Origin: Candidatus Gullanella endobia
GTDB lineage: Bacteria > Pseudomonadota > Gammaproteobacteria > Enterobacterales > Enterobacteriaceae
DNA length: 64,000 bases
Reading direction: 5' to 3'
Assembly (NCBI RefSeq): GCF_900048035.1
Contig: NZ_LN999832.1
Span: 186,001-250,000, forward strand
Shown here: one piece after another, positions 8,300-44,500 of the stretch
Position numbering within the stretch: position 1 is the stretch's first letter
Layout: each line of letters starts with the position of its first letter
Program-made: the position numbers and the translations under genes
The notes under the pieces: generated by a model
Told to the model about the DNA's origin: nothing
Database searches by the model: none
What the model saw: only the letters and a program-made list of their open reading frames with translations

Positions 8300-9250
8300 T
8301 TATATATACTTAAACATAGCTGATATAGATTCTTCGTTACTAATACGACGAATTGCTTCCGCTAACATCTCGGACAGCGTTAACATACGCACATTAGGTA
8401 ATGTTTTTATAGCCGCATTTAATGGAATAGTATCACAAACGATTACTTGATCAATAATAGAGTTATTAATGTTTTCATAGGCATTTCCTGAAAAGATTGG
8501 ATGTGTAGCATAAGCGAATACCCGATTGGCACCGCGTTCTTTTAAAGCTTCAGCAGCCTTGTATAAGGTGCTACCAGTATCAATCATATCATCGATAAGA
8601 ACACAATCGCGACCTGATACATCGCCTATAATATGCATAATCTCAGAAACGTTAGCACGTGGACGGCGTTTGTCAATAATCGCCATATCGGTATCATTAA
8701 TTAGCTTAGCTATTGCACGTGCACGTACAATTCCACCGATATCAGGCGAAACAACAATCGGATTCTTTAAATCCTGTTGAAGGATATCTTCTATTAAAAT
8801 GGCGCTACCAAACACATTATCCACTGGAATATCAAAGAATCCTTGGATCTGTTCAGTATGCAAGTCAACTGTTAGCACGTGATCAACACCAACGTTTGAT
8901 AAAAAATCCGCTATAACTTTAGCAGTAATAGGAACTCGAGTAGAACGGACACGGCGATCCTGACGTGCATAACCAAAATAAGGGATAACAGCGGTAATAC
9001 GACCAGCGGAAGCACGAAGTAGCGCATCTACCATAACTACTAGTTCCATAAGATTATCATTAGTGGGTTTGCAGGTAGACTGGATAATAAAAACATCACT
9101 ACCGCGAACATTTTCGTTTATTTCTACACTGATCTCTCCGTCACTAAAACGACCAACGGTAATATTACCGAGACTGGTATGTAAACGGTTAGCAATACGT
9201 TCCGCCAATTCTGGGATGGCGTTTCCAGCAAAAAGCTTCATATCAGTCAC
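8300..9250 (-). CDS. prs: Ribose-phosphate pyrophosphokinase (PRPP synthetase)
   Basis: Converts ribose-5-phosphate and ATP to PRPP, the precursor for purines, pyrimidines, NAD, histidine and tryptophan. The 316-residue product matches the E. coli enzyme (315) along its whole length: the flexible-loop motif YARQDRR near 98, the catalytic [11 protein letters not shown] near 130, and the PRPP-binding loop [13 protein letters not shown] near 215-227. The start is GTG 9250, giving Val/Met-Thr-Asp-Met-Lys-Leu-Phe; E. coli prs has the same offset, although ATG at 9241 is possible. In E. coli it is the last gene of lolB-ispE-prs. Here ispE has decayed between lolB and prs. Confidence 0.97.
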
Positions 9251-9839
9251 GAAAATAACCTCGGTTTTCTTTAAAAGATATTATAAGTATATTATTGTTA
9301 GATAATTAATTTTTATATAATACATTCTATAACAGAAAAATGTAATATCTTGCATCAAATTTAATAACAAGCATTTTACCTATTAACTATAATTTATAGT
9401 TAAAATTAATATTATTTTAAATAGAAAAAATGAGATACTGTTTCTATTAATTTAATTAGTTTTAAATATCTATAAAAAGTAAAGGTAAACACTATTTTGT
9501 TATAAACTAACAAGTATATCGATAATAGGCAATACTACATTTAATCAATAGCATTATTAAATGTTAAACAATATAAATATGTTTATTTTATTTAGAAAAT
9601 AGTACATTAGATTTAATCTTGTTATCAGAAATTTCTCCAATTAATATTTAATTCTAATATTTATTAAATATACTATAAGTATAGTAGTATTATACTATAC
9701 CTAATAACATATAAAATAAAGTATTTTTATGATACACTAGTTATGCTTAATTTATCTAATGCTTAATTTATCCAATAAACAAATATGGATATCGACGATA
9801 GAAGCAATAATTAACATATCGTTATAAATTTATAAACTG
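9251..9839. other. Gene-free region, body of the decayed ispE
   Basis: Together with the fossil at 9840-9920 this interval occupies the place of ispE (about 850 bp in E. coli), and it has shrunk to under 700 bp. I could align only the 5' end; the remainder is saturated with stops in all frames. Confidence 0.6.
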
Positions 9840-9920
9840 AAATATATTTCGTGTATAATAAATGATAATCATTATTATATCGTCGGTTAACATATAAAAA
9901 ATAGATCAAATTTATCTAGA
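9840..9920 (-). pseudogene. ispE: ispE fossil (CDP-ME kinase, N-terminal part)
   Basis: Reading the minus strand from 9913 gives K-F-D-L-F-F, matching KLNLFL of E. coli IspE. After a one-base shift at 9895 it continues Y-V-N-R-R-Y-N-N-D-Y-H-L-L-Y-T, matching YITGQRADGYHTLQT with an exact Y-x-x-x-x-x-x-x-x-Y-H-x-L-x-T register. It starts about 20 bp after the lolB stop, in the order and orientation of the E. coli lolB-ispE-prs operon. The frameshift and the stop-filled continuation show it is dead. IspE phosphorylates CDP-methylerythritol in isoprenoid synthesis, so its loss implies the MEP pathway is broken or bypassed. Confidence 0.65.
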
Positions 9921-9939
9921 ATCAATACCTAATAAATCA

Positions 9940-10567
9940 TTATAAATTCCATTTATCAATTCTCAATTTAATTTGAATATCACACTGATATAACTCTAAA
10001 TTTGACGGTAATGCCGGATCAATATCATCATAATAACTTTTGTAAATAACAGTCCAGCATTGTCCATTATAATTATAATTTAAAGCATGTAGATATCCGT
10101 TGGAATCTAAGTCAAAATTAGTAGCATCGCCGGGCAAACCGAGCATCCACTGCCGCAAGTTAATAAGTGGAATAGATATACCAGATAGTTTCTGAATGAT
10201 CATTTCCGCATCTTTTTCAGTATAGCATTTTCCATGATTGTCGATAAGTTTAGCTGAACCCGACTGAATATCTAAATTTATTTCTGTTTTGCCGAGTGGA
10301 TTAGTTAGAATTAACTGGCAACGATCTGAGCTAATTTGTTTCCAATTAAAGCGAGCATAAATTTTTTTTTGATTGGAAAAATAGGCGAAAGCACCATGTG
10401 CCTGATAACAACTGAATGCAGAAAGCAATTTCTGGTGAAGTCGCCATTCTGACAATGTTTTTTTTTAGTATAACGGAAGGTATATGAACACTACAAGAGG
10501 CTAGTAGTAGACTAGAAAATAACAGAAAAACAGAATACTGCATAATTATGCTAAAGCATAACTTCAT
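9940..10567 (-). CDS. lolB: Outer-membrane lipoprotein LolB, split by a +1 frameshift in an A9 tract
   Basis: LolB receives lipoproteins from LolA and inserts them into the outer membrane. The N-terminal frame, from ATG 10567 (10591 is possible), has a lipoprotein signal: Lys, a hydrophobic run FLLFSSLLL and the lipobox LLASC. It shifts out of frame at a run of nine A on the coding strand (10458-10466). The next frame continues as TLSEWRLHQ, then GAFAYFSNQKKIYARF, LLTNPLGKTE, GKCYTEKDAE and LRQWMLGLPGDAT, all as in E. coli LolB. Joined, the two parts make about 208 residues (207 in E. coli). Eight A in the transcript would restore the frame, so polymerase slippage could keep the gene alive. 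It is either a rescued gene or a very young pseudogene; nothing else in the gene is damaged. Confidence 0.8.
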
Positions 10568-10799
10568 CTTCTTTTTTTCGAATAATTTCATTTTTACGCT
10601 AATAGCTCGTATCATTATAGTTAATTACTTTAATAGTTTAATTTAATATTTTTATAAGTTGTATTTTTAAAAGATAAAGAAAAGTAGTTTTACTTTTCTT
10701 AAACCCATCTATAAAACATAATATATAAAGATAATAATCATACAATGTTATACCATTCTATGATCTTAATCTAAGATATTTCTTGAATCTAGTATTAAT

Positions 10800-11890
10800 T
10801 GAAAACACTGCTAATTCTTAGGAATTAGTTATTTTCTTAATTTTTAAATATACTAAATAGTTTGCTTGACAAATTCTAATTCATAAAATCTTTATTATTG
10901 TTCCTAATTATAATTTTATATAGCAATATTTTATTATTAAATAATAGACTAATTTTAAGAAAAGTATTAGTTTAAAAATGAAAAGATATCACAAAGTTTT
11001 TTATTGGTATCTAAGTGAAGATAAATTTATCAGCTATTTAAACATACGTTATTAAAAATCTAGAATTATTGATACATAGTGAACTGCAAACTTTCGTGTA
11101 ATTAAAAGTTTTTATTGAGTATTACTGATAGTAAAATTTGTCAGTAGATCTAAAGCAATTTTGGTTAAAAACAGGCCAATACCAAAAATGAGATTGTTTT
11201 TTCATATAGCGTCGGTAATATTTTTTTAGTCTTTACATTCAAAGAACAGATTTTAAAATTTCTTTAATCATATACAGTACTACTAATAAATATAAGCGAA
11301 GCAATTGATCTAGATCTCACTGTTTATCTATTCAAATTTAGAATTAATTGCTTGATTATCACTAATTACATCTGCAATTAAGCATAAAAACTATCGGAAT
11401 ACACCAATGATAATATTATTAGTCTAATATTAATAAAATATTGGTTCAGTTAGTACTGAAATAGCATTTCATCAGCTTATATTATTTATTATATAATCCT
11501 ATTTACACAATATCAAATCAAAGGTAAAAATTAATATAAGAACAAAAATAAAACCTTGATAGCATTAAGAATACATTTTGATATCTACCTTAATTTATCT
11601 TTGTTAATAAAAAAGAACATTATATGCTGCAATTTCATAGATAACAGCAATCGATTTGAGTTGACAGATATTAATTTATATACAATAGATGTACCTTCTG
11701 TATATTTTAAAAGTCTATCTCTTCGTAAATATTCCGTAATACTAGCACAAACTATTGTTATGTATGAGAATATATTCTGTTCTTAACTAAGAAACTAATC
11801 GGAATATTAAAGTGATGTATGATTACTATCTGAAGGCAGTATAGCCTATGGTAAAATTTTAAGCCCATTTATATTCGTACTGCACTTTAG
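10800..11890 (+). pseudogene. hemA: hemA fossil (glutamyl-tRNA reductase)
   Basis: Several islands match E. coli HemA in order on the plus strand, just upstream of prfA as in E. coli. At about 10804-10840, N-T-A-N-S-stop-E-L matches STCNRTEL. At 10993-11055, K-V-F-Y-W-Y-L-S-E-D...S-Y-L matches KSLYWHQDND..SHL. In the open stretch 11556-11786, KKN..FIDN matches RRN..LVDI, LYTID matches LYSVD, LSLRK matches LAQRK, and TIVMYE matches TIVAQE. At about 11850-11890, VKF-stop-AHLYSYCTLV matches WKLTNRLIHAPTKSL. Internal stops and frameshifts make it non-functional. HemA makes glutamate-1-semialdehyde, the first committed heme precursor. The stretch at 11556-11786 could be mistaken for a 76-residue hypothetical gene. 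Confidence 0.75.
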
Positions 11891-11922
11891 TTTAACTCTA
11901 AGCAAAAGGTAAACTACTACAT

Positions 11923-13005
11923 ATGAAGTCTTCAATAATCACTAAATTAGAAATATTACAAAAGCGTCACAAAGAAGTTGAAGCTTTGCTTAGTGATCCT
12001 GATCTGATATCTGATCAGCTCCGTTTTCGCGTATTATCAAAAGAGTACGCACAGTTGTCTAATATCACTTGCTGTTTTCAACATTGGCAACAGGTAAAAG
12101 AAGATATAAACACTGCAGAATATTTGCTACAGTATCCAGAAATGCGTGATATGGCTCAAAAGGAGCTGTTGACATCCCGCACTAGTCTAGAACAACTTGA
12201 ACAACAATTGCAGGTACTATTATTACCAAAGGATCCTGATGACGAACGTGGCTGTTTTTTAGAAATACGTGCCGGAACCGGTGGTGATGAAGCAGCGCTA
12301 TTCGCAGGTGATCTATTTCGTATGTACAGTCGTTTTGCTGAAACCAAACGCTGGAAAGTAGAAATCATTAGTGTTAGTGATGCTGAACATGGCGGATTTA
12401 AAGAAATCATTGCTAAGATTTCTAATGAAGGAGTATACGGATTATTGAAATTTGAATCTGGTGGCCATCGCGTACAACGTGTACCAGAAACTGAATCTCA
12501 GGGTCGCATTCACACTTCTTCTTGTACTGTGGCAGTAATGCCAGAAATCCCAGAGTCGGAATTACCGGAAATCAACTCTAGTGATCTGCGTATTGATACA
12601 TTCCGCTCTTCTGGTGCGGGTGGTCAACATGTTAATACTACTGACTCAGCTATTCGCATTACTCATCTTCCCAGTGGACTAGTAGTAGAATGCCAAGATG
12701 AACGCTCTCAACATAAGAATAAAGCAAGGGCCTTAGCAGTATTAGGTGCACGTTTACGTGCTGCTGAAATCCAACGTCGGCAGAAAAAAGAATCTTCCAC
12801 GCGCCGTAATCTCCTTGGTAGCGGTGATCGATCCGATCGTATTAGAACTTATAATTTTCCCCAAGGACGAGTGACAGATCACCGCATCGGCTTGATACTT
12901 TATAGATTAGATGAAATTATCGAAGGCAAACTCGAGATGTTAATTCAACCTATTATACAGGAATATCAAACCGATCAACTTGCTACATTATCCGAGATAC
13001 TTTAA
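11923..13005 (+). CDS. prfA: Peptide chain release factor 1
   Basis: RF1 recognises UAA and UAG in the ribosomal A site and triggers peptide release. The product has 360 residues, the same as E. coli. Visible: the PxT codon-recognition tripeptide Pro-Glu-Thr at 188-190, the catalytic GGQ at 233-235 within [15 protein letters not shown], and the conserved [13 protein letters not shown] segment near 116-128. The ATG at 11923 follows an AAAGG site about 14 bases upstream. It overlaps prmC by one base (TAATG), so the methylase that modifies the GGQ glutamine is translationally coupled to its substrate. In E. coli hemA lies immediately upstream; here only its fossil remains. Confidence 0.98.
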
Positions 13006-41546: not shown

Positions 41547-44500
41547 ATATATTCTTATATTTAGCGAATTCAGTTATCATTATGGTGAATCTCTATATGT
41601 CTTTTATGATAAATTATACTAATGATTGAAACAATTTTTTATAAACTTTGCAAGATTCATAATCTGTACTATGAAGACAAATTTTTAATTACTTAATTGA
41701 TGCATTTATTCTCAATTAGCTAAGTTTTTAATTATCTGAATATTTAATAAAGATAATAATGATACTACTGTTTTTGACGAGCTGACTTATCCGGATATTC
41801 TCTTAATATTTAGAGAATATTTTTAAAAAATAGTATTTTTATTATTTTCTTCTAACGCAATATATATACACTTTATATATACACTTTCAAGTGTAAACTA
41901 CCTACACTCCAGTGACAAATCAGATCAGTATTTTCTTTTTTGTATTTTTAGTATAACCTAAAATATTGTCGTATATTTATATTAAAATTTTTGATGATAT
42001 TCAAAAGTGAAATTTTAAGTATTTTAATATAAAAATCAATATAATAATATTTTTAATAAAATTTCTTAACTGACTAAATAAGAGTAACTTACTAGCATAG
42101 TAAATACCATTTAAATAAAAAGAAAATATTATAGCAAAATAACTGAAATTTTCAGCTTACTAATTTCTATTACTGGAATAAGAATAAACATCTATTTAAA
42201 TAGAAATAGACGTTTATTCTAGTATTAAAGATGTTTTCATTATATTTTTATTGTAAAACTAATATTTCTTTAAGTTCTTAGTTAAGTTTTTTATCATTAT
42301 TGATTATAATATAATCAAAATTAGATTTTTATTTTTGAGGTTCTTTAATTAGATACTTTTCGGCTTGTTAGCATAAGTTTAACTTGAGTGCTTAACATTA
42401 TGAAATAATTATCTATCATGTCTAAATTATTAAAGTGAATAAATTTCTAAATATATCTAAACAAAATAAGAATACAACCTAAAGGCTAATTAATAACCTT
42501 TGTTCTAATATGTTATAAATTATTTTTTTAACAAAACAGTAAGAGAAAAAAATGCAATTTATTCTTAATAAGAATTAATAAAATTTATCGTAAATAACAC
42601 ATATAAATTATATTATTAATTTTATTAATATAATAATATATCACTTATATAAGTCTCTGCTTAGTAATTGAATAATAATTAATATATTTATAATTTTTTA
42701 GTTCTTCCTATTAGGAATAATTAAATCTAGTAATAAAGTGTAAGAATCAGATTTAACGCGACTTGTTCGCGTATAGCGAACTTTAATTGATTATCGTTTA
42801 TAACCTTTAAAAATTAAACAGATACATTAGATTACTTTATATAAAATTTTCTAATTACTACTAATATAGTCTTAAATGTAAATAGCAAAGCTATTAGTAT
42901 TGAATAGCCTTTATTAGCATGAACACTGGGTTAACTCACAGAAAAGAGATTTTTACTCAGTATACTTGTATAAATAATCGTCGAGTAAAAATAAAACTAA
43001 ACCAATCTGCTAAATCTATTATTAAAGAAATGAATAATATTATTAATTCCATCTTAAATAGAATTTTTCATAGCATTAGTCAAAAAATTTAATCACTGAT
43101 TGATATAATTTATATACTGGAAAAAGATTTTGAATTCTATAATAAGATTTAATATATTAAATCAACGATAATAAAATGATTAAAAATTAATCTTATTTTA
43201 TTAACTCAAATTACAAAAATTAGAGTTAAGCAAAATAAGAATAGCTATTATATAGCGATTATATTTAGTAATAGTTTCAATAATATTATTACTACTACTG
43301 GTAGCGAGTAAAGAACACCCTATTTTAAAAACTCGCTGATACTATTTTAGTTCTTTTTTCCATTAACTATATAAATAACAGATCTTAGTAATTTATTAAA
43401 ATTAAGCTATAATCCTTTTAAAATCTAAAAACTTAGAAATCTAATTATTTTTATTTATATAAAGTACTAAGTTTATTGAAATAAATAATCTTGAAATATT
43501 CATATGAAATTACTTCTATTAATTTCTATTATAGTTATTTATTTAAATAAATAGCAAAGAATTTTTCACTATACTTAGAAAAATAGCGATAGAAACTAGA
43601 TTTTTATTATAACTAAAATTTAAGACAATAACCCTTAATGCTTATCTTTATTCTTTTCTAAAATTTTTATATTAAACTATCGGAATTAAAAAGAATTACG
43701 TTTAAGTATTATTTTTTATTGCGAATATCTTTTTAGCTTTAGTATAATTAAAAATAGAACATACTAGCAATAAGTTAACTCTAGACTTTTCTTCTGAGTA
43801 TGAAAATAAATCTCATAGATTAATTATGATGTGATTAGTAATGATGTAGTAATAATTTATATTTATCTGGTAGGTATTTAGCTTTATTCTGATATATAAG
43901 TAATTTATCTTTAATCATAAGTACTTATAACAAATCTATTTTTTATAGATTTATTTAATAAAAACACTATAATAAAAATTATTTCGGTTAATGAGATAGA
44001 ATTCTTCTTATATTTTCATTTTCATGAATATAGTATATATATAATTAAATATAAAAAATGAGCATCTATATATAATAATCGAATTCATTTTCTTTATTTT
44101 TATCACATGGTTCATACAAAATACTATTATTAACTTTAACACTGAATAATACTATAGAGCTAGTGAATATATTTTTATAGTTATAAATTGAGTTTTTCTT
44201 AGGTCATAAATATTTCCTCATATCTGAGATGATGCTTTTATATAGAGCTATGTATATGAATAATTTGAAATTATTAATGTTACAGCAAATAATAATATCT
44301 TTTATTATCAAATTTGTAGTTATTTATAACTGAATAATTAATTAATATTATCAATAATTGATATTACTACTTTATTTAAAGAAAATATCTATTATAAATA
44401 ACACAATAAGCTTTTATGTACTTTTAATAATATTAAACTAAATTATTGATATCATAGATAAAAACTGTTAAATCTATCAATGGTTTGTAATTTCTTAAAT

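Follow-up and report, generated by a model that had tools for sequence, protein, structure and literature searches.

A single break at a nine-adenine tract in lolB of Candidatus Gullanella endobia: a candidate for rescue by transcriptional slippage

The slippage-rescued genes of Buchnera and Blochmannia (Tamas 2008 and Wernegreen 2010, as reported in the accessible parts of PMC3017870, PMC4389277, and PMC5009743) are the nearest known systems to the locus described here. According to the accessible text of PMC5009743, bacterial slippage occurs on runs of nine A or T, and correction reaches 12-50% of the transcripts from frameshifted genes in two symbionts, one of an aphid and one of an ant. 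In the available sections of PMC3017870 eight B. vafer genes broken at such runs are thought to be correctable and are counted as intact, and the same practice is followed in those of PMC4389277. For the trp genes of a scale-insect symbiont slippage was weighed against loss, and loss was favored (accessible part of PMC10689751). The word "slippage" is absent from the main text of a study of mealybug-symbiont pseudogenes (PMC13345370).

The dnaX gene of Thermus thermophilus resembles the proposed lolB case in that RNA polymerase slips on nine A or T. However, both dnaX products are used by the cell, while the lolB break is presumably an accident with one useful product (PMC5009743, accessible text). 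In E. coli, lolB itself undergoes +1 frameshifting at a CCC-C motif, and there too LolB output hinges on the frame near the N-terminus. That event is ribosomal, takes place at codon 2, and lowers LolB, whereas the case presented here would restore it (PMC7803779, accessible text).

As far as they are described in the accessible parts of the three papers above, the Buchnera and Blochmannia cases share several features with lolB of Ca. Gullanella endobia (genome G000): an AT-rich reduced symbiont, one indel that falls within a long A/T run, two parts that are otherwise open, and a function that is expected to be needed. The lolB case differs in lineage and gene, in its accelerated evolution, and in a second A9 tract within the gene. 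Since slippage rescue has been reported for Blochmannia and Buchnera, lolB is a candidate further instance of a known phenomenon and would call for no new mechanism. The case is absent from the accessible portions of the literature on LolB in endosymbionts and on slippage (PMC3246468, PMC7803779).

The window is the whole 64,000-base stretch that was analyzed (C1:186001-250000 of this single-contig genome of 938,041 bases). Within it lolB is split between two frames (Table 1). The nine T on the + strand at 10458-10466 are nine A on the lolB coding strand. The lipoprotein signal and lipobox lie in a different DNA frame from the mature LolB domain, with the junction at this A9 tract. The original prediction had placed the signal and lipobox in one frame and the rest of LolB in the adjacent one, meeting at the nine A, and the sequence, the open reading frames (ORFs), and the profiles all confirm this. 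The upstream ORF contains MKLCFSIIMQYSVFLLFSSLLLASC; its lipobox is LASC, with a serine at +2, and the ORF also crosses the second A9 tract before its stop at 10346. On its upstream side the mature frame is shut by a TAA that overlaps the start of the A9 tract. Its 171 codons contain neither a stop nor a second indel, and the break at A9 is the lone lesion. The gene thus carries a single indel in a long A/T homopolymer and its remainder is open.

Table 1. Features of the split lolB gene and its neighbors (window coordinates)
Feature	Coordinates	Strand	Basis
Upstream ORF, 89 aa: LolB signal peptide, lipobox, linker, then out-of-frame residues	10346..10615	-	ORF list and sequence
Lipoprotein signal peptide, ATG (10567) to lipobox Cys codon (10495-10493)	10493..10567	-	Start codon is the authors' choice, likely
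A9 tract, site of the lolB frame break; A8 or A11 would fuse the frames	10458..10466	-	Sequence; scripted tract variation
Mature LolB domain, 171 codons open from TTG	9940..10455	-	ORF and profile matches
Second lolB A9 tract (..N Q K K I Y..), in frame for the mature domain	10362..10370	-	Sequence
Presumed prs homologue	8300..9250	-	ORF; aligned without lesion
Presumed prfA homologue	11923..13005	+	ORF; aligned without lesion

The length of the tract was varied by script, with the start at the ATG of 10567. A8 gives a protein of 208 aa, in agreement with the earlier estimate of about 208 residues for eight A, and A11 gives 209 aa, while A6, A7, A9, A10, and A12 give only 72-85 aa. Because A11 also joins the frames, a two-base gain would serve as well as a one-base loss. 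The spacing from the cysteine to a conserved tryptophan in the A11 product equals that of the protein of a relative with a contig of 4,709,528 bases (G004); the A8 product is one residue shorter. The 676 bases of lolB contain two runs of nine, which is unusual given that clean genes totalling 131 kb have six (Poisson p 0.0005, for a gene picked post hoc).

The downstream ORF matches the LolB profiles PF03550 (E 4.6e-37; 127.8 bits, curated cut-off 23.7) and TIGR00548 (E 1e-47; 162.3 bits, cut-off 59.6; profile positions 34-201 of 202), as well as the solved LolB structure 1iwm (E 3.6e-53). The comparison took in one genome of the genus, G000 itself, and a scan of genome contigs with the protein confirmed no relative. 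Among LolB-matched genomes the closest twelve are at 55-66% identity and include G004 and the reduced genome G145 (contig of 834,734 bases). In all 55 relatives' loci that were fetched (rows judged by eye) a continuous frame leads from a lipobox-like cysteine into the mature domain, and the split of lolB is therefore not a chance arrangement. Both halves had been described as well conserved. This holds for the mature domain, which is 61% identical to the G004 reference, but in the signal half it is the character (hydrophobic core, LASC) that is conserved and not the sequence. The aligner put a second shift in the signal half, at reference residue 10; we read it as an alignment artefact, because the ATG and the open frame run straight to the tract.

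The GC content of lolB by codon position is 0.41/0.33/0.28, compared with a mean of 0.49, 0.36, and 0.25 in 112 clean genes and with 0.20 in sequence outside open stretches of 60 codons. The gene has retained its coding composition and does not show the multiple lesions that mark a pseudogene of the decayed type. Conservation was scored with 39 of the 55 relatives, after 16 below 45% identity had been dropped. In 56 conserved columns (from 35 reference rows) lolB has 9 altered, and four reduced relatives with a continuous frame have 5, 6, 6, and 9; in 36 invariant columns the counts are 5 in lolB and 1, 2, 5, and 7 in these relatives. Under simulated neutral decay, with an assumed mutation model and assumed indel rates, the lolB frame stays stop-free with a probability of 0.41 at 0.02 substitutions per site, 0.125 at 0.05, and 0.017 at 0.1, before indels are counted. 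Any neutrality of lolB is consequently recent.

The rate of change tells against full rescue, as lolB evolved fast on the G000 branch. In a three-taxon comparison of G000, G145, and G004 its branch is 0.38 to G000, a length that also spans time before the indel, and 0.11 to G145. The ratio of 3.18 ranks second among 41 reciprocal-best genes, whose median is 1.46 (surA, gmk, and recX gave no row), and the top row looks to us like a mispaired gene. The long branch points to weaker or altered constraint on lolB in this lineage. Unlike lolB, four cases found in B. vafer only had a fold of 1-1.5 in an acceleration check (accessible part of PMC3017870).

Other breaks at homopolymer runs were sought in 464 kb of the genome (49%) by frameshift-aware alignment, with open frames taken from portions of G145 and G004 as references; further broken genes may be missed where these gave no cover. 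Of 171 loci found, 153 cover at least 80% of the reference and were sorted by lesion (the other 18 rows were set aside), and 132 of them have none. These lesion-free loci, which are clean by selection, contain 26 A/T runs of eight and six of nine. Runs of nine or more are broken in 2 of 9 instances, with the second lolB tract counted as intact, and runs of eight in 0 of 26 (p 0.06). There is no match to mutL in G000, while MutS is full length; in G145 mutL is present only as fragments, four of six with stops. The lack of a mutL match makes errors in run length expected and would explain the instability of long runs.

Four of the 21 loci with lesions (lolB, surA, gmk, and recX) were judged to have frames that are good apart from their indels. 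Like lolB, surA is an envelope gene interrupted once, at a long run. It is broken at a T10 run (genome 413923-413932; L065, G000:C1:410001-430000) inside the signal peptide, and past the break the frame is open for 418 codons from the signal's end. With T8 or T11 it would encode 431 or 432 residues, as calculated by script. gmk (genome about 622423-623057; L075, G000:C1:610001-630000) has two indels at T5 runs and is otherwise conserved, and a family search found no second copy in G000. Guanylate kinase, the gmk product, is essential in E. coli; the lesions are either assembly errors or an odd loss. recX (genome about 384624-385087; L063, G000:C1:370001-390000) has two indels at runs of four in frames that are otherwise good.

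LolB is essential in E. coli. In G000 the proteins LolA, two of LolC/E type, Lnt, BamD, and Pal are all present with no internal stop (LolD, Lgt, and LspA were outside the tested set). With one query sequence, which a fast-evolving LolB may escape, 55 of the 295 family genomes sampled gave no LolB match. LolA was sought in a hand-picked, non-random set whose genomes are not independent. It comprised 20 of these 55 genomes, the ones listed, and 12 LolB-positive genomes taken from the 29 listed with a size of up to 1.0 Mb. Of the small LolB-positive genomes, 9 of 12 gave a LolA match, which in one case contains an internal TGA; of the LolB-negative genomes, 2 of 20 did (Fisher p 0.0003), and one of these two has 2.4 Mb. 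In the relatives tested LolA and LolB are mostly kept or lost together. Some Buchnera, however, lack LolA and LolB and yet have parts of LolC/D/E (PMC3246468, accessible text). These partial systems, together with the two LolB-negative relatives with LolA, indicate that pathway members can outlast LolB.

By analogy with these symbionts, the likeliest of the readings considered, at a little less than even odds, is that lolB still works at reduced output through slippage of RNA polymerase on the A9 tract. With mismatch repair lost (mutL not found) and a bias towards AT, a change in A-run length would have become likely, and this change would have set the export and lipidation part and the mature part in separate frames. 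The polymerase would slip on A9 during transcription and may thereby yield enough LolB. Transcripts one A shorter would encode the lipoprotein of 208 residues and those two A longer one of 209, while unslipped transcripts would give a product of 73 residues. As the junction sits in the linker past the lipidated cysteine, one residue more or less should be tolerated. The single lesion, the pathway and client lipoproteins kept alongside, and a run length for which slippage is reported all support rescue. Slippage at the second A9 tract would ruin a share of the corrected transcripts. It is doubtful that slippage at two steps at once, SurA (T10, signal peptide) and LolB (A9, linker), runs outer-membrane assembly; in that event both breaks would fall in tolerant N-terminal export segments, and polymerase error would set the levels of envelope biogenesis factors.

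The original prediction was that lolB is either dependent on slippage or dying now. These are the right two alternatives, with the intact frame, the kept pathway, and the precedents on the side of rescue, and the acceleration and the partial Lol systems of Buchnera on the side of decay. As a very young pseudogene, lolB would carry the indel as its first lesion, with secondary decay yet to appear. We consider this somewhat unlikely, although the accelerated branch (second of 41) is consistent with it and other G000 loci are plainly decayed, such as the spoT-like one (7 shifts, 9 stops). Loss of LolB also looks common from the 55 of 295 family genomes with no match to the one query sequence, Buchnera has partial Lol systems without it (PMC3246468, accessible text), and the frame could have escaped stops by chance over 0.02-0.05 neutral substitutions per site (probability 0.41-0.13). 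Recent death of the gene fits less well with the retention of LolA, two LolC/E-type proteins, Lnt, and the clients BamD and Pal, with the pairing of LolB absence mostly with LolA absence (18 of 20 relatives tested), and with conserved columns that are eroded no more than in relatives with a continuous frame.

Several sequencing platforms are prone to errors in homopolymers of 9-10, and the two breaks at T5 runs in the only gmk found may be a sign of indel errors in this assembly. That the A9 is an error of assembly or sequencing and the genome tract is in frame is nevertheless unlikely, as indels are few: 132 of 153 loci are clean, and by our sorting just 4 of the remaining 21 combine an indel with an otherwise good frame. 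Widespread homopolymer error as the sole cause was rejected because the sample contains no more than a few indels, with the caveat that clean genes are clean by selection. Such symbionts are probably polyploid, and without MutL chromosomes with A8 and A9 might coexist, the A8 copies supplying LolB. The missing mutL match and the breaks at 2 of 9 runs of nine or more versus 0 of 26 of eight (p 0.06) agree with such a polymorphism, but the A9 consensus implies that A9 is in the majority, and we regard it as very improbable. The second A9 tract, the surA break, the missing mutL, and the A8/A9 polymorphism as a third source of LolB all go beyond the original prediction. It is hardly conceivable that ribosomal frameshifting or internal initiation, instead of polymerase slippage, restores LolB. 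Ribosomes can slip on an A run as well, as at the E. coli dnaX site A AAA AAG (PMC5009743, accessible text). By frame arithmetic, however, the shift required here is +1 or -2 and the usual one is -1, which disfavors the ribosomal route; the lolB target frame is not the one reached by programmed -1 frameshifting, and there is no Rfam match in 9000-12500. Internal initiation would use a TTG that sits past the signal peptide with no visible Shine-Dalgarno sequence, and from that start the LolB product would remain cytoplasmic.

If slippage on the A9 tract is real, RNA polymerase error would sustain a gene that is essential in E. coli in one more symbiont lineage, and the phenomenon of Buchnera and Blochmannia would extend to lipoprotein sorting. 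A "pseudogene" of a reduced genome that has one indel, at an A/T run, should then not be counted as a loss without RNA data. If it is not real, lolB catches the first step in the loss of the Lol pathway. The added interest of the lolB case lies in its pairing with the surA break.

Among the remaining lesioned rows two are degraded loci: a match in the window to the G004 frame a_35394, and the locus of G000 that we take to be spoT-like, with the lesions given above. At 42749-43146 in the window there is a degraded locus resembling a G004 frame of 162 aa, with 2 frameshifts and 5 stops. Nine of the 21 rows (a_81505, a_77109, a_51560, a_51408, d_272221, q145_386327, q145_281317, b_81102, and b_258575) were dismissed as shadow frames or over-long reference starts because they overlap a lesion-free gene. 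On reading, no break was visible in a pdxA fragment and def, and b_81561 was judged to be an over-long frame across an rpmH-like gene. The rest are d_231596, q145_194045, and the C-terminus of rlmE. In d_231596 (a G004 frame of 351 aa; genome about 373430-374448, L063) a shift and a stop are confined to the first 21 residues, and this could be an over-long start or another N-terminal break. A reference-free search for lolB-like architecture, begun on 302 run-strand combinations with runs of eight or more, returned three rows in its final form. Two of them are lolB, one for each of its tracts, and the third is a T9 run upstream of a start that is presumably that of a tpiA-like gene, which we judged to be chance. 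surA escapes this search because its downstream frame is open too far ahead of the run for the settings.

The spacers on either side of lolB, 9251-9939 and 10616-11922, have 18% and 23% GC, and by E. coli gene order would presumably be occupied by ispE and hemA. A promoter scan of 9200-12000 gave 25 hits and 24.7 in shuffles, with no excess, and a terminator scan of the same interval found 0. The only ORF of at least 40 aa wholly within these spacers lies at 11556-11786 (+) and encodes 76 aa.
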